DNA from: an uncultured Lachnospiraceae bacterium
GTDB lineage: Bacteria; Bacillota; Clostridia; Lachnospirales; Lachnospiraceae
Direction of reading: 5' to 3'
DNA length: 43,355 bases
Assembly: GCA_947174185.1 (NCBI GenBank)
Contig: CAMWHY010000006.1
Span: 1-43,355 of the forward strand
Shown: one piece after another, positions 253-28,654 of the stretch
Position numbering within the stretch: position 1 is the stretch's first letter
How the letters are laid out: each line of letters opens with the position of its first letter
Notes under the pieces: generated by a model
What the model was told of the DNA's origin: nothing
Database searches by the model: none
The model's input: only the letters and a program-made list of their open reading frames with translations
Made by a program: the position numbers and the translations under genes

Positions 253-1638
253 ATGGTTGCTAAGATGGCAGAAAGTGGATACCAACAGGAAAAAAACTGG
301 TATAGAATTATGATGATCATGAATGCTGTTTTCTTTTTCCTGCTGCATCTGACCTTTGTGGGATTTACAAATGATGATGCGTATTTTGTTGTTGTCAGAA
401 GCCAGTGGGATTCTCTCTTTGAGCTTCTGGTAGACCGATATCTGACGGATTCTTCCAGAGTGCTTTCCGAAGCATTGCTTTTTACGTTGGTTAAGATGCC
501 GTTTTTCGTATGGCAGGTGCTGGATACCTTGATTTGTATTCTGGTATATCACTGTCTGACAGTATTGCTGGTAAATGATAAACAGAATAGGGGAAATATC
601 ATTGTATTTCTTGCATTTGCATCTTACCCTTATATGCATATGGGTTCTGCCGGATGGATATGTACTTCGTTAAATTATATGTGGCCTCTGGCGACGCTGT
701 TATATGCGTTGAGCGGCGCTTTCCGCAGATACCGCGGCGAGAAGATTCCTGCTTGGAAATATCCGCTTTATCTTGCGGCTATGATCTTTACTGCAAATTG
801 TGAGCAGTCAGCGGTGATGCTGGTTATGACATTTGCAATGGCATTCGTTTTTGCTGTCATGGATAAAAAAGGTAAATGGTATGAACTGGCAGCAGTTTTG
901 ATCGGCGTTGCGGGGGTCTTGTTTGCTATGCTTGCTCCCGGCAACGATGAACGGACGATCATGGAGGCGGAGAATTGGATGCCGGAATTTTTTGACCTGA
1001 ATTTGCTGGAAAAAGCCCGGCTTTGTTCGGTTTTTGTGTTTGAACATTTTGTAATGATCCCGGATGTGATATTTTTTCTGTTTGCGTTGCTTTTGGCACT
1101 TTGCGGGGCAGGCAGGGGAGAGGGCACTGACGGTAGTAAAAGCAACGGTTTTGATCGTGTGATGGCTTTCCTTCCGCTTGCTGTGGATGTTATCTTTACC
1201 GGTTGTTATTTCATAAAAGATTTTATCATTGGCCATAAGACCAGATATGATTTTACAACTCCGGCGATTTATATGGAAGATTTTCAGACGGCATTCCTAC
1301 AGATTTCAGAAGTATTGGGGCTGATCCTGTTTATTGTGGCGTCCGTTTATACGATATGGAGAGTGATTCCAGAACTTCGGAAAAAACTGATTATGATCTG
1401 GGCGCTTGGGTGCGGTTTTGCGGTGCGGATGGCGCTGATGCTTTCTCCTACGATGTTTGCTTCCTGGCACAGGACGCTGATTTTTATGTATTTTGCATTT
1501 ATTTATTGTATTGTTATTCTTATAGGCATGTGCAGGAAGCAGTGGAAAAGGCGGTTAATATATGGTATTCTGGTTATTGGTGTGCTCGTAAATCTGATCC
1601 TGACGGTGGGACTGCAGATACGTAAGTACGCGGGGTGA
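253..1638 (+). CDS. GtrII-like / DUF6056-like polytopic membrane glycosyltransferase
   Basis: A 461-residue polytopic membrane protein with roughly ten hydrophobic segments from residue 17 onward. An acidic motif, NDDAYF, lies just after the first membrane segment, as in GT-C type enzymes that use polyprenyl-phosphate sugars. DSSRVLSEALLF and NYMWPL follow, a pattern I associate with GtrII/DUF6056-like proteins. The start is supported by GGAGAAAGG at 242-250, two bases before the ATG. The next gene, 21 bases downstream, is a GtrB-like glycosyltransferase, so the pair probably makes a lipid-linked sugar and then adds it to a glycan outside the membrane. The sugar and acceptor cannot be read from sequence, and no GtrA-type flippase is visible. 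Confidence 0.7.
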   Translation: MVAKMAESGYQQEKNWYRIMMIMNAVFFFLLHLTFVGFTNDDAYFVVVRSQWDSLFELLVDRYLTDSSRVLSEALLFTLVKMPFFVWQVLDTLICILVYHCLTVLLVNDKQNRGNIIVFLAFASYPYMHMGSAGWICTSLNYMWPLATLLYALSGAFRRYRGEKIPAWKYPLYLAAMIFTANCEQSAVMLVMTFAMAFVFAVMDKKGKWYELAAVLIGVAGVLFAMLAPGNDERTIMEAENWMPEFFDLNLLEKARLCSVFVFEHFVMIPDVIFFLFALLLALCGAGRGEGTDGSKSNGFDRVMAFLPLAVDVIFTGCYFIKDFIIGHKTRYDFTTPAIYMEDFQTAFLQISEVLGLILFIVASVYTIWRVIPELRKKLIMIWALGCGFAVRMALMLSPTMFASWHRTLIFMYFAFIYCIVILIGMCRKQWKRRLIYGILVIGVLVNLILTVGLQIRKYAG

Positions 1639-1659
1639 TTGGGAAAGAGGAGGTCAAGG

Positions 1660-2574
1660 ATGAGTTTATTATCAATTATTGTGCCCTGTTATAATGAAGA
1701 AGAATCTCTGGAGATCTTTTATCATACCGTACAGGAGACACTAAAACCTCTAAAGATGGACATAGAATATATTTTTGTGGATGATGGTTCTATAGACGGT
1801 ACGCTTTCCAAGCTAAAAAACCTTCATAAAGCGAAAGGGCATGTTCATTATGTTTCTTTTTCCCGTAACTTTGGAAAAGAGGCGGCGGTTTTTGCCGGCC
1901 TTCGGGAATCCCGTGGGGATGCGGTTGTAGTGCTGGACGCAGATCTACAGCATCCGCCTTCGGTGATTTTAGAGATGGCTGCGTTATGGGAGGATGGCTA
2001 TGAGGTGATCGAAGGAAAAAAGAGTAACCGCGGCAGGGAATCTTTTCTCCATAAGCTGATGGCAGCTACTTTTTATAAGATGATCAGTGGATTTATGAAG
2101 ATGGATATGAACGACTCCTCGGATTATAAATTTATGGACAGGAAGGTAGTGGACGTACTGTGCAGTTTAAAAGAGAGAAATACTTTTTTCAGGGCGCTCT
2201 CTTTCTGGACAGGCTTTAAGACCGTTGGCGTAACATATGCAGTGCAGGAACGGACGGTGGGAAAGACAAAATGGTCGCCGACTGCTCTTGTAAAGTATGC
2301 CTGTAACAATTTGATCTCATTTACTGTTGCCCCATTATATATGATCGTGACTGTGGGATTGTTGTTTTTTGTGATTGGACTGGCCCTTGCGATTGATGCT
2401 GTTGTGGATCATTATATGGGAATTGCCGTAGAGGGATATCCCACGCTGGTTATATTATTGGTTATTGCAACTGGATGTATTTTGTTTTCCATTGGGATCA
2501 CCGGAGTTTATATTGCAAAGATCTATGATGAGATCAAAGAAAGACCGCAGTATATTATTAGGGAAAGAGAATAA
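1660..2574 (+). CDS. GtrB-like polyprenyl-phosphate glycosyltransferase (GT2)
   Basis: A 304-residue GT2 enzyme of the GtrB/DPM1 group, which moves a sugar from a nucleotide donor to undecaprenyl phosphate at the inner face of the membrane. The GT-A domain shows IIVPCYNEE at the N-terminus, DDGSIDGT at about 41-48 and DADLQHPP at 93-100. RTVGKTKWS and two C-terminal membrane segments (about 225-248 and 260-283) follow, as in GtrB. Start choice: a TTG at 1639 is in frame, but the ATG at 1660 has AGAGGAGGT seven bases upstream and begins directly with the conserved strand. It sits between the GtrII-like protein and the MBOAT gene, consistent with one decoration operon. Confidence 0.88.
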   Translation: MSLLSIIVPCYNEEESLEIFYHTVQETLKPLKMDIEYIFVDDGSIDGTLSKLKNLHKAKGHVHYVSFSRNFGKEAAVFAGLRESRGDAVVVLDADLQHPPSVILEMAALWEDGYEVIEGKKSNRGRESFLHKLMAATFYKMISGFMKMDMNDSSDYKFMDRKVVDVLCSLKERNTFFRALSFWTGFKTVGVTYAVQERTVGKTKWSPTALVKYACNNLISFTVAPLYMIVTVGLLFFVIGLALAIDAVVDHYMGIAVEGYPTLVILLVIATGCILFSIGITGVYIAKIYDEIKERPQYIIRERE

Positions 2575-4092: not shown

Positions 4093-5070
4093 TTGAAAAA
4101 ATTTTCATTGTTTATTATAAAGTTTATAATCGTGCTGGGATTGGCGTATGGTGCATATTATGGGCTATTCTGGTTTTTATGGCAGTCTGAGATCTGCCCT
4201 GATGCCTATGATCATGCGTATCAAAAGGCATTGCTTTTACAGTATCAGGCATTGGCGGAGGAAGGCAGGGAGCCGGAAGTGATTGTATTTGGCTCCTCTT
4301 ATGTACCCTTTGGCATTGACGTATCCGTGATGGAGGAGGAGCTGGACAGACCTGTTCAGATCCTTGGCATCGAGGCGGGAATCGGAATCCCGGTTTTGGT
4401 AGATATCTTATACGAGACGGCAAAGCCGGGGGATACGATCGTCTATATGCTTGGAAAGTCTAATTGGTATAACGAGGACTTTATGGTAATTTCCGCTGCC
4501 CTGGAAAGCGATAAGGAACGGCTGGCGCACTATTGGAGCCTGCGGGAAGGAACACTGGACGACTATCGCAATAAAATGATCTGGCGAAAGCTGTACACTT
4601 TATTTGCCGGTGATCTGGTGGAGATTGTCCGTTCCGGGATATCTAAAAATGAACAGGTGTATTCTCTGGATTCCTTTGATGAGAGAGGTAATATGACAGC
4701 TCTTAGGGAGGGTAACCTGATTGGAACCGAGGTATCTCCCACAGATACTTTGTGCTTTGAGGATATGGAACTGGAAACGATGGATATGCTGAATGAATTT
4801 GCACTCTGGTGTCAGAAACGGGATGTAACCTTTGTGATAGCATATTCGATGACCATCGACGGTTCTTTGATTGAAACGGAGGAAGAACTGGCGCAGTACC
4901 ATGAACAGATGACGGATTATATGTGGCCGGATATTCTGGGTGTGCCGCAGGATTATTTCCTGCCGGTAGAATATTTTTATAATCACACAGCCCATTTGAA
5001 TTCTGAGGGTGCGGCAGCATATTCCAGAATCTTGTCGGAGAAGCTGTTGGAATATGAAGGAATCCGTTGA
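4093..5070 (+). CDS. SGNH-like membrane-anchored partner of MBOAT (DltD/AlgJ-like)
   Basis: A 325-residue protein with one N-terminal membrane segment (about 6-28) and an external domain of SGNH-hydrolase style. VIVFGSSYVPFGID (about 64-76) supplies a candidate serine in block I, and NHTAHLNSEGA near 297-307 carries the histidine expected at the C-terminal block. Such proteins accompany MBOAT enzymes in D-alanylation, alginate acetylation and related pathways. The start is a TTG at 4093 with GAAAGAGG (4078-4085) seven bases upstream; the nearby ATG at 4088 is followed at once by a stop. The usual D-x-x-H is not exact here (N-x-x-x-H), so catalysis is not certain. It lies directly behind the MBOAT gene. 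Confidence 0.75.
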   Translation: MKKFSLFIIKFIIVLGLAYGAYYGLFWFLWQSEICPDAYDHAYQKALLLQYQALAEEGREPEVIVFGSSYVPFGIDVSVMEEELDRPVQILGIEAGIGIPVLVDILYETAKPGDTIVYMLGKSNWYNEDFMVISAALESDKERLAHYWSLREGTLDDYRNKMIWRKLYTLFAGDLVEIVRSGISKNEQVYSLDSFDERGNMTALREGNLIGTEVSPTDTLCFEDMELETMDMLNEFALWCQKRDVTFVIAYSMTIDGSLIETEEELAQYHEQMTDYMWPDILGVPQDYFLPVEYFYNHTAHLNSEGAAAYSRILSEKLLEYEGIR

Positions 5071-11086: not shown

Positions 11087-12070
11087 ATGAAGACGATTTT
11101 GTATTTAAATCATGATTTTTTTATCTATGACAGGGCAATCGCGGAGGAACTGCGTAAGAGGGGATATGAGGTCCTGTTCCGTAAGTTTGTCCGGCAGGCG
11201 GGGTTTCTGGACCGCAGATTATGTAAAAAGCATGGGATCACTGCCAGGCAGTATGCTGCGGACCGTTGTCAGGCATCGATTTTATCGGAATTAACGAAAA
11301 AAAATCAGCATGTAGATGTTGTTCTGGTAACTTCCGGGCAGGCGATGACGGAGGATACCTTACAAAAGCTTCATCAGATGTACCCACAGGCAAAATTTAT
11401 CTGGAATTTATGGGACAGTATCAACCAGAACGATCATTTTAAACTAATTCAAAAATATTTTGATATTCTGATTTCTTTTGATAAAATAGAGGCGGAACAG
11501 TACGGATTTTTGTATAGTCCCGATTTTTATATTAAGGAAGTGGCTGGGCAACAGAAAAAATATGATTATTGTTTTGTGGCCACCTATACGGAATATCGGA
11601 ACAATGTTTTACAGGATATGCTATCAAAGGTTGGCGGGAAACATGATTTCATCTATCTGAAAGAGACGCCAAATAACAGATGGCTTCCGATGATCCGGCG
11701 GATCTGTTCCGGAGAAGAAAAAAAGCTTGCGGAAAGAAATATTTATTATAAGGCGTTAGAATATGATGCTATGCTGGAAGTTTTTGCACAGAGCAGATGT
11801 ATTATTGATATTGCGCATCCTGGGCAGACCGGGCTGTCCATGCGGCCCTTTGAAGCTATGGCTGTAAAAAGCAAGCTGCTGACTACGAATGAAATGATCT
11901 GCAGATATGATTTTTATGATAAGGATAACATTTATATAGCAGATCCTGAGAATATTCAAATGCCGCCAGACGATTTTCTGGAGACTCCTTATAAGGATAT
12001 ACCGGAAGAAATCTACCGCAGATACAGCGTTGGAAGCTGGTGTGATAATATACAGAGGTTGATCGAGTGA
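11087..12070 (+). CDS. Putative GT-B glycosyltransferase (CgeB-like)
   Basis: A 327-residue soluble protein starting MKTILYLNHDFF. The clearest signature is near the C-terminus, QTGLSMRPFEAMAVKSKLLTTN, which resembles the donor-site helix of CgeB/Glyco_trans_1_2 proteins. An earlier KFIWNLWDSI and FDILISFDK pattern fits a first Rossmann domain. I assign it as a glycosyltransferase by this pattern and by context, not by a diagnostic motif. The ribosome-binding site AGGGGAT lies about five bases before the ATG. The next gene, the initiating transferase, starts with a GTG overlapping its stop by four bases. Confidence 0.62.
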   Translation: MKTILYLNHDFFIYDRAIAEELRKRGYEVLFRKFVRQAGFLDRRLCKKHGITARQYAADRCQASILSELTKKNQHVDVVLVTSGQAMTEDTLQKLHQMYPQAKFIWNLWDSINQNDHFKLIQKYFDILISFDKIEAEQYGFLYSPDFYIKEVAGQQKKYDYCFVATYTEYRNNVLQDMLSKVGGKHDFIYLKETPNNRWLPMIRRICSGEEKKLAERNIYYKALEYDAMLEVFAQSRCIIDIAHPGQTGLSMRPFEAMAVKSKLLTTNEMICRYDFYDKDNIYIADPENIQMPPDDFLETPYKDIPEEIYRRYSVGSWCDNIQRLIE

Positions 12071-13488
12071 ATAATATCTACCGAAAAAGCAATGTGATAA
12101 AAACATATGGTTTGGCTATGATCGAGCTGATCAGTGTGGTGCTGGCATTTCTGGCAGCATTACTGCTGCGTTTTGGCAATTTCCAATTGGATGACCATCA
12201 GGAGATGTATTTTGCTTATGGTATCTTTCTGATGGTATTGACGCTGCTCTATTCTGTTATGACGGATTGGAACAGGGATTTTTTTGAACGGGGGTATTTT
12301 AAGGAGCTTGTAGCTGATGGAAAATATAATATCATTCTGGTTTTGCTGAGCAGCACATTTCTTGTTTTCACAAAAAATGCGGATATCTTTGCCAGACTGG
12401 TTATGATCTATTTTGCCTGCTTCAATCTCCTGCTGACGTATCTGTTTCATATCAGTTTTAAGGAGTATATGTTGAAGCGTTACAAAAAAAGCGTCAACAG
12501 TGATAAACTTATGGTGATTACCGATGCGAAGGATGCAGAGCGGATCGTTACGCAGATCCTTGAAAAACCGCACTGGAATTACGAGCTGACATCGATAGCG
12601 GTCATGGATGAGGATATGATGGGGAAGGAGATCTGCGGTATACCGGTCATTGCAAACAGAAAGAATCTGATTGAGATTGCTACGCAGAATATTCTTGACA
12701 GAGTATTTATTTCCCTGCCAAGGACGGAGCTGGAGATTGTGAAGGAGATGATCATGGAGTTTGAGGCTATGGGAATTCTCTGTCATTATAGTATTGAGAT
12801 CGATGAATTGAATCTGGAAGGGAAAGAGGCCGGAAATTTCGCGGGATTTTCCGTTATTTCCTTCTCTTTGCAGAATATGGATTACCGCCGCCTGATGATC
12901 AAGAGGTTTATGGATATTGTGGGAAGTATCATTGGACTGCTGTTTACGGCAGTCATCTTTCCCTTTGTGGCGCTTGCAATTAAGATGGAATCCAGAGGAC
13001 CTGTAATCTTCAGGCAGGAACGTATTGGAAAGAATGGCAGGAGATTTAAGATGTACAAGTTCCGTTCCATGTATCAGGATGCGGAGAAGCGTTTTGCGGA
13101 ACTTCAGGAGCAGAATGAAGTACAGGGATTGATGTTTAAGCTGGAAAATGATCCCAGGATCACAAAGGTTGGAAAGTTTATTAGAAAGACAAGCATTGAC
13201 GAGCTGCCGCAGTTCTGGAATGTATTAAAAGGTGATATGAGTCTGGTGGGGACGAGACCGCCGACAAACAATGAATTTGAGCGTTATAGTCCTTATTATC
13301 GCAGACGTTTAAGCATCACGCCTGGACTGACAGGCATGTGGCAGGTAAACGGCCGCAGCGATATTAAGGATTTTGAGGAAGTGGTAAAACTGGATCTGCA
13401 ATATATCGACCGGTGGTCCCTGTGGCTGGATTGTAAACTTCTGCTACAGACCTTTGGAGTGGTGCTGTTTGGCAGGGGATCAAGATGA
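12067..13488 (+). CDS. Polyprenyl glycosylphosphotransferase, initiating enzyme (WbaP/CpsE-like)
   Basis: A 473-residue enzyme that transfers a sugar-1-phosphate to undecaprenyl phosphate, the first step of repeat-unit synthesis. The N-terminal part has about four membrane segments (12-130), then a CoA-binding-like soluble domain, then the catalytic domain from about residue 278. That domain shows KRFMDIVGS, GPVIFRQERIGKNG, MYKFRSM, TSIDELPQFWNVLKGDMSL, VGTRPP and PGLTGMWQVNGRS, all typical of the family. The start is a GTG overlapping the previous stop (GTGA). The first sugar could be glucose, galactose or an N-acetylated sugar; sequence alone does not decide. It confirms that this is a lipid-linked polysaccharide locus. 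Confidence 0.95.
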   Translation: MNNIYRKSNVIKTYGLAMIELISVVLAFLAALLLRFGNFQLDDHQEMYFAYGIFLMVLTLLYSVMTDWNRDFFERGYFKELVADGKYNIILVLLSSTFLVFTKNADIFARLVMIYFACFNLLLTYLFHISFKEYMLKRYKKSVNSDKLMVITDAKDAERIVTQILEKPHWNYELTSIAVMDEDMMGKEICGIPVIANRKNLIEIATQNILDRVFISLPRTELEIVKEMIMEFEAMGILCHYSIEIDELNLEGKEAGNFAGFSVISFSLQNMDYRRLMIKRFMDIVGSIIGLLFTAVIFPFVALAIKMESRGPVIFRQERIGKNGRRFKMYKFRSMYQDAEKRFAELQEQNEVQGLMFKLENDPRITKVGKFIRKTSIDELPQFWNVLKGDMSLVGTRPPTNNEFERYSPYYRRRLSITPGLTGMWQVNGRSDIKDFEEVVKLDLQYIDRWSLWLDCKLLLQTFGVVLFGRGSR

Positions 13489-13529
13489 TCGGTCGGAAAC
13501 AGAATAAGCATAGAGGAGAATTGAAAAAG

Positions 13530-14435
13530 ATGGAAAATTTTAAGCTGACAACGCCGGTGGCATTTTTGATCTTTAACCGGCCGGATACGACAAAAGAGGT
13601 ATTTGAGAGGATTCGGGAGGCGAAGCCGGAAAAATTGTATCTGATCAGCGATGCTCCGCGGGAGGGCAGAGAAGATGATATGGAGAAGGTTGCGGAGACA
13701 AGACGGTATGTGGAGATGCATATTGATTGGGACTGCAAGGTATATAAAAATTATGCGGAGAAGAACATGGGATGCCGGGACAGGGTATCCTCCGGTATCA
13801 CATGGGTATTATCTCAGGAAACGAGAGCGATCTTCTTAGAGGATGATATTGTTCCGCTGCCGGAATTTTTCCGGTTTTGTCAAGAGATGCTGGATGCCTA
13901 TGAAGATAATCCGCGGGTCATGATGGTGTCAGGACTGAATCTTGTCAGGAAGCATAAGATGGATACGCCTTATACCTTTTCCTGTTTTTCCAGTATCTGG
14001 GGCTGGGCAACCTGGCGCCGCGCTTGGGAAAAATATGATGTGAATGTGGCGGACTGGCCGGAGTTGAAAAAAGCGGGAACCCTGAAAAAAGTGCAGAGCG
14101 GATTTTCTTATCTGTTTATGAAACGGAATGTTGAAAGGGTATATACGAAAAAGCTGGATACCTGGGATATTCAGTGGGATTATTGCCGGCATAAGCATAG
14201 GGGACTTGGGATCGTACCGCGTGAGAATCTGATCTGTAATATTGGTTTTAACAGGGAGGATGCAACCCATACCAAGGAAGGCTCAGACGAGGATTTTTCC
14301 TATGGGACGATGCATTTTCCCATGGAAAAGAATGTACCGGTACGCCGGGATGTGGAGTATGATAAGGCATATATCAGAAAATATTTCGGAATAAAAAAAG
14401 TCGTAAACATTATCAAGAAAGCAGTAAAGAAATAA
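13530..14435 (+). CDS. Nucleotide-diphospho-sugar transferase (HlpA/GNT-I-like glycosyltransferase)
   Basis: A GT-A glycosyltransferase of about 301 residues. TPVAFLIFNRPDTT at the N-terminus and LEDDIVPLPEFF near residue 110 are the marks of this group. SIWGWATWRRAW in the middle is also characteristic. Two starts are possible: ATG 13485, which overlaps the previous stop, and ATG 13530 with GAGGAG 11 bases upstream. I chose 13530 because the extra 15 residues are basic and precede the conserved core. It probably adds one sugar of the repeat unit. Confidence 0.8.
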   Translation: MENFKLTTPVAFLIFNRPDTTKEVFERIREAKPEKLYLISDAPREGREDDMEKVAETRRYVEMHIDWDCKVYKNYAEKNMGCRDRVSSGITWVLSQETRAIFLEDDIVPLPEFFRFCQEMLDAYEDNPRVMMVSGLNLVRKHKMDTPYTFSCFSSIWGWATWRRAWEKYDVNVADWPELKKAGTLKKVQSGFSYLFMKRNVERVYTKKLDTWDIQWDYCRHKHRGLGIVPRENLICNIGFNREDATHTKEGSDEDFSYGTMHFPMEKNVPVRRDVEYDKAYIRKYFGIKKVVNIIKKAVKK

Positions 14436-14479
14436 GAATTTTGCAGTTATTGTGATGTGAAATGATTGAAAGGCTTATT

Positions 14480-15238
14480 ATGTTAAAGAGAAAAAAACTG
14501 TTTGGCATTAAAATCGTGGTATCTGATCCGGAAGAAGCAGTCAGCCATGTCGTAAAGGCAGTGGAAGAACTCAGAGGCGGCTATATCAGTTTTGCCAATG
14601 CGCATACGACGGTTCTGGCGCATGAAGACAGGGATTTTCATCAGGTACAGATGGAAGCGTCCTATGTCATGCCGGATGGGCGACCCTTATCAAAGCTATT
14701 AAGGCTTAGGGGATACTCTCAGGCAAAACAGATCGCCGGACCGGATTTTATGGGCAGACTCTGGGAGGCGACAAAGGACGGGACATTATCGCATTATTTC
14801 TATGGCGGCAGTAAAAAGACCATCGAAGCATTGAGAAAGAGGCTTGCGAAGGATTATCCGGAATTAAAGATCGTGGGGATGGAATCACCGCCATATCGTC
14901 CGCTGACAGACGAGGAAGATCGGGAGATGATAGAACGAATCAATGCTTCCGGTGCTGATTTTATCTGGATCGGACTGGGTGCGCCGAAGCAGGAGTATTT
15001 TATGAGGGCGCATAAGGATATGTTGTGCGGCGTCATGCTCGGCGTCGGAGCCGGATTTGATTTTCAGGCAGGGACGGTGAAGCGTGCCCCGGAGTGGATG
15101 CAGAAGCATTATCTGGAATGGCTGTATCGTTTCTGGCAGGAACCGGGAAGATTATGGAGACGGTATGTGGTGACGAATCTTAAGTTTATCGGTATGGTGA
15201 TGCAGTATCATAGGTGCAGAAGAAAAGCAGGCATGTGA
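14480..15238 (+). CDS. WecG/TagA/CpsF family glycosyltransferase (GT26)
   Basis: A 252-residue GT26 enzyme. The expected order is present: ISFANAHTTVLAHEDRDF, the catalytic aspartate in MPDGRPL (near residue 66), AGPDFMGRLWE, WIGLGAPKQEYFM, and the C-terminal LEWLYRFWQEPGRLWRRY that tethers the protein to the membrane. Family members transfer ManNAc, ManNAcA or glucose-type sugars to the lipid-linked acceptor. The start at 14480 has GAAAGG six bases upstream; the earlier ATG at 14462 lacks one. The C-terminal domain of the protein at 18464 is a relative, and that protein also carries a decayed copy. Confidence 0.93.
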   Translation: MLKRKKLFGIKIVVSDPEEAVSHVVKAVEELRGGYISFANAHTTVLAHEDRDFHQVQMEASYVMPDGRPLSKLLRLRGYSQAKQIAGPDFMGRLWEATKDGTLSHYFYGGSKKTIEALRKRLAKDYPELKIVGMESPPYRPLTDEEDREMIERINASGADFIWIGLGAPKQEYFMRAHKDMLCGVMLGVGAGFDFQAGTVKRAPEWMQKHYLEWLYRFWQEPGRLWRRYVVTNLKFIGMVMQYHRCRRKAGM

Positions 15239-17507: not shown

Positions 17508-18443
17508 ATGGGAAAGAGGATTTTGGTGACCGGAGGAGCAGGGTTTTTAGGAGCCCATCTTTGTGAACGGCTGATCAGAGAGGGAAATGATGTCATTTGT
17601 CTGGATAACCTGTTTACCGGAAATAAAGATAATATTCGTCATCTGCTGGGAAATCAGTATTTTGAATTTATCCGGCATGATATTATCCAGCCGATTATTT
17701 TAGAAGTGGATCAGATTTATAATCTTGCGTGTCCCGCCAGTCCGATCCATTATCAGTATAATCCGATCAAGACGACGAAGACCAGTGTCCTGGGAGCTAT
17801 GAATATGCTGGGATTAGCCAAAAGAGTGCATGCAAGGATACTGCAGGCGTCTACCTCTGAGGTGTATGGCGATCCGGAGGTACATCCGCAGCCGGAGAGT
17901 TACCGGGGATGCGTCAATCCTATCGGAATCCGTTCCTGTTATGATGAGGGAAAGCGTGTGGCAGAGACCTTGTTTTTCGATTATCACCGTATGCATGGGG
18001 TGGAGATCAAGGTGATGCGTATCTTCAATACCTATGGACCAAAGATGCATCCTGCTGATGGTCGTGTAGTGTCCAATTTTATCGTGCAGGCGCTGAGAGG
18101 GGACGATATTACGATCTATGGCGATGGAAGCCAGACGAGGAGCTTCTGCTATGTAGATGACCTGATTGAAGGAATGGTCCGTTTGATGAATTCCAGAGCG
18201 GATTTTACTGGCCCGGTGAATATCGGGAATCCCAGCGAATTTACTATCGGACAGCTGGCAGAGCTGGTGATAAAGCTTACCGGCAGCAGTTCAAAGCTGG
18301 TATATCAGCCGCTTCCTTCGGATGATCCGTTGCAGCGCAAGCCGGTTATTGATCTTGCTAAGAAGGAACTGGATTGGGAACCGACCATACCATTGGAGGA
18401 AGGTCTGCTGAAAACAATAGAGTATTTTAAAACAATACAATGA
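17508..18443 (+). CDS. UDP-glucuronate decarboxylase (UDP-xylose synthase)
   Basis: A 311-residue extended SDR. It converts UDP-glucuronate to UDP-xylose with bound NAD. The nucleotide loop is GGAGFLG (9-15). The substrate-specific stretch [20 protein letters not shown] (74-93) and [20 protein letters not shown] (120-139), with the catalytic Y145-x3-K149, are strongly typical of this enzyme rather than of other epimerases. Length is normal for the bacterial form. A UDP-glucose dehydrogenase to make the substrate is not in the window. It predicts xylose, or a sugar made from it, in the polysaccharide. The fusion protein follows 20 bases later. Confidence 0.93.
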
Positions 18444-18463: not shown

Positions 18464-20536
18464 ATGTTAAATGATCTGAGATGTCAAATCTTAAATACGG
18501 AGATTTCCGTGGTCACTGTGGAAGATGCAGTGGCTTTTTTGGCTGGAAACGATCAAGTAAAAAAAGGACAGTATGTATGTAATGTCAGCGTGGATGATGT
18601 GATGTACGCGAGAAAGGATGCAAAATATCAGCGGCTGGTCAATCAGGCCGTCCTTACGCTGCCTAACAGCCGCCAGATCTCATCGGAGATACGTCTTCAG
18701 GGATATCCAAGGGCGGAGAAGATCGATGTGGTGGATCTGATGGAGCGGGTGTTGGCGTCGAGTGAAGAAAAGCCGGAATGCAGACATTATTTTGTGTGGT
18801 ATTCCGGTTATGGAAGCCCGGAAGACGGCAGTTTTATGCCAGAATGTCTTTTTGATAAATTGAAAGTGGAATATCCCCATGCTGTCATAGCCGGCGGATG
18901 GGAATATTCTGAAGAAGATCATTCGGAAGAAGATTATTCTTCTGACGACAAATCTGTTGATAGTAAAGATATCATATCGGAATATATCAAAGATTCCGGG
19001 GCAGATATCATATGGGTTGCAATGCCGTCGCCAATGCAGGAGGAGTGGATGGCAGCGCATCGGGGAATGTTTGACGGTATTATGGTTGGGGTGGACTATG
19101 GACTGAATGTTTATTGCGGCACCAGAAAAAAACCTCAGGAGGAAAGAAAAAGAGGATTGCTTTATTGGCCCCGTTATGTCGTCAGCCGATGTAGGCAGCT
19201 TCCCAAAGGATATATCGGGATGAATCTGCGCTACATAGGTCTGACCGGGAAAAAATTTATTTTAAGGACATTAAGCTGGGCTCCCGCACTTGCGACGATG
19301 CTTATTATCTTTATTTTGTCGTCGCAGAATGGTGTGGCGTCGGGGGATACCAGTAGAGAATTGACGATGGGGCTGCTTCATCTGACGGCAGAGGAAAGCC
19401 CCTATGTTGCCGCATCAAATCAGGCTGCAATTGAAGCTTTGGATGCACTGATTCGGATGATTGCCCATATAGGGGAATATGCATTCCTATCGCTTATGAT
19501 CGGTTTTGCTGTTAGCGTGAACGGATTCGGTGGTAAGATTCGGATGTTTTATATGTGTTTTCTTGGGATGATTGTGGCTGTTGCGGATGAATTTTTTCAA
19601 ATTTTTGTTCCGGGGCGTTATGGCGATCTGAAGGATGTGGTGTTTGACTTGGTTGGCGTCATTGCGGTGGCGACACTGTTATACATCTGGAGCAGACATT
19701 TTGAAAAGCGAAAAACAGCCCACAGGACAGAAGAAAAGATCCCGTCCGTTGCGCGTCGTAAGTTTATGAATCTCTGTTTGGACGATATTACCTTTGAGGA
19801 GGCGGTCTGTCAGATCGGCGTTCTGGCATGTGAAGAAGGAAAACATTATGTAGTAACGCCCAATGTGGATCATGTGGTAAAGATCGAGAAGGATCTGGAA
19901 TTTAGAAAAATCTATGAGGAAGCGGATCTGATTTTAACAGATGGAACGCCTCTTATGTGGATTGCAGAATCTCTGGGATGTCCGATCAAGGAGAAGATCC
20001 CGGGAGCGGATATGCTTCCTAAGGTCTGTGAGATGGCGGCAAAGGAAGGACATACCATGTTTTTGTTTGGGGCGGCGGAAGGCGTGGCAGAGACGGCGAG
20101 ACGTAAGCTGATCCAAAAATATCCCGGACTTCAGATCGTGGGCGCATATTCTCCGCCGATGGGTTTTGAACGGGATGAAAAGGAAGTGGAAAAAGCAATC
20201 CGGATCATCAATCAGAAGAAACCACAGATCCTGGTAGTCGGACTGGGCGCTCCGAAACAGGAGAAATTTATCTATCAGTACAGGGAGAAGATAGATTTTC
20301 ATGTGGCGCTTCCCTTTGGCGCAGCAATTGATTTTGAAGCCGGGATGGTAAAACGTGCTCCGCTTTGGATGCGAAGGTTTGGATTGGAGTGGCTTTTCCG
20401 TTTTTTTCAGGAACCGGGAAGGTTATTTAGAAGATATTTTATAGATGATATGAAGATTTTTTGGCTGGCATGGAAATATCGATATGAGATTATCCGTCTC
20501 TGGGATGATTCGACAGAAAAAAAGGAAGGATTATAG
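18464..20536 (+). CDS. Tripartite fusion: degenerate WecG/TagA - VanZ-like - WecG/TagA glycosyltransferase
   Basis: A 690-residue protein with three parts. Residues 1-265 follow the WecG/TagA pattern but are decayed: NSRQ (68-71) stands where the catalytic DGTP should be, and MPSPMQE (187-193) replaces GAPKQE. An acidic insert, EDHSEEDYSSDD, lies at 151-162. Residues 268-412 are a VanZ-like membrane domain (FILSSQNG, AHIGEYAFLSL, ADEFFQIFVPGRYGDLKDVV). Residues 432-680 form an intact GT26 domain with TPNVDHVV, LTDGTPLMW (D493), GAPKQE (595-600) and LEWLFRFFQEPGRLFRRY. The frame is continuous with no sign of a frameshift. The active half likely adds a sugar to a lipid-linked intermediate; the roles of the VanZ part and the dead half are unknown. 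Confidence 0.9.
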   Translation: MLNDLRCQILNTEISVVTVEDAVAFLAGNDQVKKGQYVCNVSVDDVMYARKDAKYQRLVNQAVLTLPNSRQISSEIRLQGYPRAEKIDVVDLMERVLASSEEKPECRHYFVWYSGYGSPEDGSFMPECLFDKLKVEYPHAVIAGGWEYSEEDHSEEDYSSDDKSVDSKDIISEYIKDSGADIIWVAMPSPMQEEWMAAHRGMFDGIMVGVDYGLNVYCGTRKKPQEERKRGLLYWPRYVVSRCRQLPKGYIGMNLRYIGLTGKKFILRTLSWAPALATMLIIFILSSQNGVASGDTSRELTMGLLHLTAEESPYVAASNQAAIEALDALIRMIAHIGEYAFLSLMIGFAVSVNGFGGKIRMFYMCFLGMIVAVADEFFQIFVPGRYGDLKDVVFDLVGVIAVATLLYIWSRHFEKRKTAHRTEEKIPSVARRKFMNLCLDDITFEEAVCQIGVLACEEGKHYVVTPNVDHVVKIEKDLEFRKIYEEADLILTDGTPLMWIAESLGCPIKEKIPGADMLPKVCEMAAKEGHTMFLFGAAEGVAETARRKLIQKYPGLQIVGAYSPPMGFERDEKEVEKAIRIINQKKPQILVVGLGAPKQEKFIYQYREKIDFHVALPFGAAIDFEAGMVKRAPLWMRRFGLEWLFRFFQEPGRLFRRYFIDDMKIFWLAWKYRYEIIRLWDDSTEKKEGL

Positions 20537-20728
20537 CTGGTAAAGTCAGTTATTGTCAGATGATATCATTTTCTGTAGACAAAAGAAAGAAGGATTTGTG
20601 CGGAATTGATTGCAAAATGTAGTCGTTTTTTGTAATCTATATATTGACACTCAAAAAATAAAATGAAGCAGCGTGAATTTGGGCACAAATGAGATATGCT
20701 ACATGCAGAGAAGGGAGTAATACTGGAA

Positions 20729-20983
20729 ATGATATACATGCATTATTGCAAAAACTGTAATTTCTTACACATGTTGAGCGGACATCGGACAATCTGTCCG
20801 GGTTGTGGAGAATCTCTGACAGAGTTAAAGATCGATTATCTGGAATATTATCAGATGGATCAGGCGGACAGGCATATGCTGTTAAAACGGTGCAATGATC
20901 CCACCGAATTGAAGGAACTGACGTTTGTGTATAAAAAGCATAAATTTAGTAAATGGTATAAAGAAGGAAGAAGTCGGAGATAG
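20729..20983 (+). CDS. Small zinc-ribbon protein, function unknown
   Basis: An 84-residue protein with two cysteine knuckles, CKNC near 8-11 and CPGC near 24-27, which should bind one zinc ion. The rest is charged and helical (KIDYLEYYQMDQADRHMLLK) with a basic tail. The frame opens at 20696, but the ATG at 20729 has AAGGGAG about 11 bases upstream and starts close to the first knuckle. It stands alone between the fusion gene and the gmd promoter. I do not recognise a named family. It could bind nucleic acid or a protein partner. Confidence 0.65.
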   Translation: MIYMHYCKNCNFLHMLSGHRTICPGCGESLTELKIDYLEYYQMDQADRHMLLKRCNDPTELKELTFVYKKHKFSKWYKEGRSRR

Positions 20984-28491: not shown

Positions 28492-28522
28492 GATAATGTC
28501 AATTAAATAAACAAGGAATATC

Positions 28523-28637
28523 TCTTATTCAGAGTGGCGGAGGTAGAAGGGACCAAAGAAGCCACGGCAACCCCTCAAAATGAGGAAGGTGCCTCCCTGA
28601 GCAAGACGGTGGATAGACACCAGCTTGAACAATAAGA
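28523..28637 (+). promoter_or_regulatory. SAM-I (S-box) riboswitch
   Basis: The leader shows the S-box order: closing stem TCTTATT (28523-28529) with AATAAGA (28631-28637), GTGGC/GCCAC stem, the conserved GAAGCCACGGCAACC, a CCTC/GAGG arm, GGTGCCTCCCTGAGCAAG, and a final arm ending in AGCTTGAAC. A terminator hairpin follows at 28655. High SAM should stabilise the aptamer and stop transcription before metK. Confidence 0.88.
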
Positions 28638-28654
28638 ATGTTGAATAAGACGAT

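Follow-up and report, generated by a model that had tools for sequence, protein, structure and literature searches.

A GT26–VanZ–GT26 fusion protein with a predicted pseudoenzyme domain in a genus of uncultured Lachnospiraceae

A single open reading frame in a draft genome of an uncultured Lachnospiraceae bacterium was found to encode a VanZ membrane domain between two glycosyltransferase domains of family GT26 (WecG/TagA). The protein is tentatively read, at a little under even confidence, as a glycosyltransferase that is integral to the membrane, serves an undecaprenyl-linked surface-glycan pathway, has functional parts at either membrane face and carries a pseudoenzyme as its N-terminal partner. 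What is new is the combination of domains, not the families themselves.

The fusion gene and its relatives

The analysed DNA (hereafter the window; 43,355 nucleotides) was the entire contig 6 (CAMWHY010000006.1, 43 kb) of a 2.96 Mb draft in 200 contigs (GCA_947174185.1). The following features were used:

12067..13488, + strand: polyprenyl glycosylphosphotransferase (PF02397; TIGR03025 409 bits, cut-off 295.55)
14462..15238, + strand: stand-alone GT26 of the N copy's subfamily, catalytic Asp kept (PF03808 4e-60; tree; motif table)
17508..18443, + strand: UDP-glucuronate decarboxylase (UXS), immediately upstream of the fusion (PDB 4gll/2b69, E ~1e-125)
18464..20536, + strand: GT26-VanZ-GT26 fusion gene, 690 aa (ORF and translation, Pfam, NCBIfam, orthologues)
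18464..19249, + strand: N-terminal GT26 (N copy), predicted catalytically dead (residues 1-262; Pfam core 64-224 = 18653-19135)
18905..18967, + strand: acidic insert within the N copy, variable in length (about residues 148-168; gapped in orthologues)
19250..19738, + strand: VanZ (lipocone) membrane domain (residues 263-425; Pfam 273-409 = 19280-19690)
19739..20533, + strand: C-terminal GT26 (C copy) with C-terminal appendage, predicted active (Pfam 487-658 = 19922-20437)

The arrangement GT26-VanZ-GT26 in one frame, described earlier from the sequence alone, was confirmed by the ORF, Pfam and NCBIfam analyses. The frame ran uninterrupted from the ATG at 18464 to the stop at 20536 (690 codons). 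PF03808 (WecG/TagA) matched in two stretches (whole protein 3.4e-77), as did the NCBIfam model wecG_tagA_cpsF, and the membrane domain was recognized by PF04892 (VanZ; 49.3 bits, cut-off 30.1) and vanZ_1 (NF037970; 74.2 bits, cut-off 20). The best PF03808 stretch, above the cut-off, was that of the C copy (residues 487-658); when the N-terminal part was cut out and searched alone, it matched at residues 64-224 (60.7 bits, E 2e-16). Three GT26 domains were found in the source draft genome, all on the window contig, and G+C and GC3 were even across the three parts of the fusion.

Whole-length relatives (81-86% identity) were present in four other Lachnospiraceae MAGs, intact in three of them (84-86%); in the fourth (L007/G305) the frame was broken within the C domain and was left unmended. 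The UXS gene directly preceded the fusion in all four, and the longer gene order, compared for G323 only, matched that of the window apart from some extra genes. The fusion is genuine because relatives in other MAGs carry its whole length with UXS upstream and the order in G323 agrees. The ratio dN/dS, calculated for six pairs of four sequences, was 0.06–0.11 in the C domain and 0.12–0.19 in VanZ; in the N copy it was 0.14–0.17 outside residues 96-180 and 0.13–0.31 within them, near that of VanZ and above that of the C domain. An assembly artefact or pseudogene would be in keeping with a draft in 200 contigs, of which one of 43 kb makes up the entire window, and with the frame shift in one of the five close copies, but the identical join in other MAGs and dN/dS far below 1 in all three parts reduce its probability to nearly nothing. 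Misassembly at the join, a concern raised by the sequence-only reading, was rejected on the strength of the orthologous MAGs that share it.

The C-terminal GT26 domain

Active-site residues were compared in a table of 92 GT26 rows in TagA numbering, with the residues taken from PMC6493773. TagA/TarA, a GT26 enzyme that transfers ManNAc in wall teichoic acid synthesis (PDB 5WB4, 7MPK, 7N41), is homologous to both GT26 domains of the fusion, and the C copy matched TagA 7mpk with E 1e-39. The C copy keeps the equivalents of TagA Thr37, Asn39, Asp65, Gln167, Glu168, Arg214, Arg221 and Arg224, and has Lys for Arg83, like other aligned members. The Asp65 equivalent was Asp in 32/32 C rows, both tandem rows and 48 of the 49 stand-alone rows, the single exception being a frame-shifted fragment; the Asn39 equivalent was Asn in all C rows and in all 47 stand-alone rows covering the position. 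In TagA, Asp65Ala and Thr37Ala caused the largest losses of activity, and removal of the appendage left the enzyme inactive (PMC6493773). By these residues, the C copy has an intact TagA-like active site and is predicted to be active.

TagA differs in that it stands alone and is membrane-bound via its C-terminal appendage, whereas the C copy sits behind four membrane helices and, in the clade of the window, behind a second, dead GT26. The Gln167 equivalent was Ser in the VanZ-GT26 C copies of a subgroup (L054-L059, L061, L063-L065), which may mark a changed substrate.

The N-terminal GT26 domain

The catalytic residues are replaced in the N copies. The Asp65 equivalent was Asn in six and Val in two of the eight N rows, and the Asn39 equivalent was Ser in all eight. 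The Thr37 equivalent was Asn in 8/8, a loss that is not diagnostic because most stand-alone rows replace Thr37 too. The equivalents of Gln167 and Glu168 were kept in 6/8 rows. The appendage arginines were lost in the N copies of the window clade; the G324 N copy keeps Arg214 and Arg221 and has Lys for Arg224. The two rows with Val at the Asp65 column (G302 and G327) are shortened domains with weak profile matches (52–54 bits) and an uncertain alignment.

An AlphaFold2 model of the N domain (14 alignment rows) had a pLDDT of 77, with low confidence at the acidic insert (below 50 at residues 153-167) and the former appendage; with ten of the 14 rows coming from other GT26 domains, the model draws on these. 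In a Foldseek search with this model, all 14 matches with E up to 0.001 were TagA/TarA chains, with TM up to 0.89 by TagA (target) length and 0.66 by query length. Since the catalytic Asp is lost, yet purifying selection and the modelled TagA fold are retained, the N copy is a maintained pseudo-glycosyltransferase, at least in the window clade, and was classed as a pseudoenzyme of GT26 fold rather than among the GT26 enzymes. The pseudoenzyme described in PMC10249906 is an RNase.

The relationships of the domains were studied in a GT26 tree of 77 domains, for which 15 of the 92 rows (near copies, frame-shifted pieces and a fragment) had been dropped; the tree was made with a quick method and SH-aLRT support only. 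Seven N copies formed one clade (support 100) within a different subfamily from the C copies, together with the stand-alone GT26 of 14462; the N copy of G302 was a very long branch. The N and C copies of the same protein shared 22% identity, and the N copy shared 27–29% with the stand-alone GT26 of L005, L006 and L007. Internal duplication of one GT26 was thus rejected by the separate subfamilies and by these identities. The sequence-only reading had proposed two copies of the same GT26, one active and the other a non-catalytic scaffold: the tree places the copies in two subfamilies and so does not support the first part, the motif table points to one intact site, in the C copy, and the missing catalytic Asp in 8/8 N rows fits the non-catalytic role.

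Conservation on the surface by which TagA dimerises was compared between N copies; the published list of surface residues prints 'Gly65' although residue 65 is Asp, and residue 66 was used here. For the window and G324, 11/17 surface positions were conserved against 76/201 others (p 0.039, uncorrected, one of six comparisons), and the two comparisons that involved the N copy of G302 showed no appreciable excess (p 0.55 and 0.37). This is weak evidence for a partner role of the N copy.

Distribution and origin

The VanZ-GT26(C) core was encoded by one gene in 31 of the 35 genomes sampled from the genus. No fusion was found in three (G309, G314, G330), and in G311 the gene was cut by a contig end and left unjudged. 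The extra N-terminal GT26 was carried by eight of the 31 fusions (G000, G331, G323, G304, G305, G324, G302, G327; that of G305 is broken); L004, L005 and L006 are apparently the same as G331, G323 and G304 and were not counted as extra cases. The N domain appears dispensable because 23/31 fusions are without it.

Beyond the genus, the matches listed for samples from the family (299 genomes), the order (392) and the phylum (398) included no other one-frame VanZ-GT26. The samples overlap and contain one or two genomes of the fusion's genus; since the lists stopped short of the weakest matches, and scoring usually covered the top three or four places in each genome, a weak or divergent fusion could escape. 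In the viral contigs scanned, GT26 was found at 3 loci of 32 pattern matches and VanZ at 0 of 41. The fusion was undescribed in the literature searched, which lay outside domain-architecture databases and the source data of PMC12419801.

In the GT26 tree, 25 C copies formed one clade (support 100 in this quick tree) beside stand-alone enzymes of other genera, and a single origin of the VanZ-GT26 fusion fits this clade. In a tree of the fusions, from which the frame-shifted G305 was left out as it was from the topology test, the triples (with the N domain) lay near the root and 22 doubles formed one clade (97/94). Neither a clade of the triples with G306 (AU p 0.27) nor one of the triples alone (p 0.15) was rejected; G306 has 89 residues before VanZ, with no match to the GT26 profile. 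A late gain of the N domain was therefore not accepted as settled, gain and loss both being compatible with the tree tests.

Other GT26 fusions were seen in related genera: GT26-GT4 (L021, L024, L032), Bac_transf-GT26 (L027) and CoA_binding_3-GT26 (L022). Members of the N-copy subfamily are elsewhere fused to initiating sugar-phosphate transferases or GT4 enzymes. In G500, from another genus, a 518-aa tandem GT26-GT26 (L068, ORF 754-2310, minus strand) joins the same two subfamilies as the fusion in the opposite order, both with the catalytic Asp; given this direct tandem, the two subfamilies look like natural partners. The fusions of L027, L021/L024/L032 and L068 resemble the present one in that GT26 is joined to neighbouring steps of glycan assembly, but they are without VanZ and their GT26 domains keep the catalytic Asp.

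The VanZ domain and its sidedness

Hydropathy indicated four hydrophobic helices, read as N-in/C-in, and the charges agree with this orientation: Lys plus Arg numbered 5, 2 and 9 in the segments taken as cytoplasmic, compared with 1 and 2 in the outer loops. A full-length AlphaFold2 model from four sequences (pLDDT 38) was set aside except for its four VanZ helices, and a profile search for a solved VanZ-like chain found none. Nine polar residues (R331, H335, E338, D375, E376, Q379, R385, D391 and D395) were invariant in 29/29 fusions, G317 and the frame-shifted G305 having been left out of the 31; by hydropathy, these conserved residues lie at the outer helix ends. A GT26 enzyme with a nucleotide-sugar donor has to work on the cytoplasmic side. 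Because the GT26 is cytoplasmic and the conserved VanZ residues are at the opposite ends of the helices, the VanZ site should open outward, a prediction resting on hydropathy, loop charges and the donor of the GT26; VanZ is then probably not presenting lipid to the transferase. The earlier proposal that VanZ binds the transferase's lipid substrate is thus not supported, and an anchoring role of VanZ may still apply.

The motifs RKxxH in helix H2 and DxxxD in H4 are given for VanZ-2 in PMC12419801, and the window has R331-M-I-A-H335 (M for K) and D391-xxx-D395, with the R, H, D and D in 29/29 fusions. By the H2 and H4 motifs alone, and with its four hydrophobic helices, the domain appears VanZ-2-like. 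It departs from that family in E..Q of H3 (E376/Q379, invariant) and in D388 of the window, which lies three residues ahead of the H4 Asp and is not among the positions conserved in 90%; PMC12419801 gives both features for VanZ-1 and Skillet. VanZ-2 is linked mainly to peptidoglycan genes in the same source, whereas the cluster of the fusion is of exopolysaccharide type. No Van protein was named among the 36 other window proteins scanned, and thus no neighbours of a Van resistance operon; those named by Pfam were of polysaccharide, cell-wall, regulatory and housekeeping types.

For membrane lipocones, PMC12419801 infers an active site in the outer leaflet and proposes chemistry on lipid head groups, with lipid-linked sugars as substrates of phosphoester cleavage or transfer; the enzymatic nature of VanZ is a prediction from this one paper, which also notes frequent fusion of VanZ families to domains of polysaccharide pathways. 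Its main text contains neither WecG nor GT26, and 'TagA' solely inside an author's name.

Proposed function

In the proposed mechanism, the C-terminal GT26 would work on the cytoplasmic face and extend a polyprenyl-diphosphate-linked glycan by one sugar, VanZ would make the anchoring of this domain permanent, and the fusion would couple building inside with release or recycling outside. The N-terminal GT26, without a catalytic base, would most likely act, tethered, as a partner for either the C copy or the active GT26 of 14462, possibly through the surface by which TagA dimerises. The active site of the C copy, the selection on the N copy, the invariant VanZ residues with their outward reading, and the initiating transferase, UXS and PglK-like transporters of the clusters favour this mechanism; the 23 fusions without the N domain, the three genomes without a fusion and the distant PglK-like gene of G323 weigh against it.

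The N copy might instead be a binding domain for the nucleotide sugar or the polyprenyl-linked acceptor, which it would pass on to either the C copy or the stand-alone GT26 (14462). The Gln167 and Glu168 equivalents retained in most N rows, and the working partnership suggested by the G500 fusion of the same two subfamilies with both catalytic Asp residues, speak for such a role; the Ser in 8/8 N rows at a position that is Asn in the covering C and stand-alone rows, and the loss of the appendage arginines in the window clade, speak against it and make it less likely than not. That the N copy is an active transferase of altered chemistry, with Asn in place of the Asp base, agrees with its purifying selection and modelled fold, but TagA Asp65Ala retains only ~3% of activity (0.052 vs 1.5 uM per min; PMC6493773), and the shortened, uncertainly aligned domains of G302 and G327 have Val there; we regard this as highly improbable.

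A comparable question concerns VanZ, which could serve the C-terminal GT26 solely as a membrane anchor or as a platform that presents lipid, with the N copy as a scaffold. TagA binds the membrane only peripherally (PMC6493773), so that anchoring would be a plain gain, and the core is present in most of the genus (31/35 genomes). A mere anchor, however, would not hold nine polar residues invariant across 29 fusions, and these lie by hydropathy at the outer helix ends, away from the cytoplasmic transferase site; the anchor is accordingly a possible, though less probable, explanation than the membrane-integral transferase with parts on both faces. A more specific form of the latter, which we consider unlikely, is a glycan machine in which the C-terminal GT26 extends the glycan inside, VanZ cleaves or transfers the flipped product outside, and the pseudo-GT26, which would come from a neighbouring pathway step, acts as a gate. 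If this were true, VanZ would act as a phosphoesterase or a transferase for polyprenyl glycans.

According to PMC12419801, what VanZ does in glycopeptide resistance has remained unknown. The fusion, kept in most of the genus, joins VanZ to a class of enzymes whose type of substrate is known (polyprenyl-PP-sugar); it ties VanZ to that lipid and offers a single-protein assay system that could help to reveal the function of VanZ. The N domain is of interest as a maintained pseudo-glycosyltransferase from another subfamily than the adjacent live copy.

Gene neighbourhood

UXS lay directly upstream of 29/31 fusion genes in the genus, with gaps of -38 to 40 nt (exceptions G306 and G301). With UXS next door, a pentose-containing glycan is likely, the pentose not necessarily being the donor of the GT26. 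The glycosylphosphotransferase of 12067 would start the lipid-linked glycan, and the cluster also has GT2 and GT4-type enzymes, a GDP-mannose dehydratase, MBOAT and FkbH-like genes. ABC transporters whose best NCBIfam model was PglK, below its cut-off, followed the fusion at 1–4 kb in G004 and G324 and preceded it by ~27 kb in G323; in G308, an ABC transporter of PglK-like Pfam make-up lay 2 kb after the fusion, and G325 had a Wzx-type transporter. Judged by its gene content, the cluster looks like an undecaprenyl-linked oligosaccharide pathway.

Several other genes were recorded. A 325-aa protein beside MBOAT (4093-5070) has an N-terminal hydrophobic stretch, an FGSS motif and no Pfam match; it looks like an SGNH-type acyl-transfer partner. 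In G323, a 482-aa gene (L099, 3263-4711) lies between the 325-aa protein and FkbH, with no counterpart there in the window. A 316-aa protein (13485-14435), with no Pfam or NCBIfam match and with relatives (57–91%) in 13 of the 15 genus clusters compared, has an EDDI stretch that reads like that of a GT-A-type transferase. Between the fusion and the GDP-mannose dehydratase, a 95-aa frame (20696-20983) has zinc-ribbon-like cysteine pairs and no Pfam match. Further downstream, a SAM riboswitch (28522-28638; Rfam RF00162, 69.5 bits) was located upstream of an S-adenosylmethionine synthetase gene.
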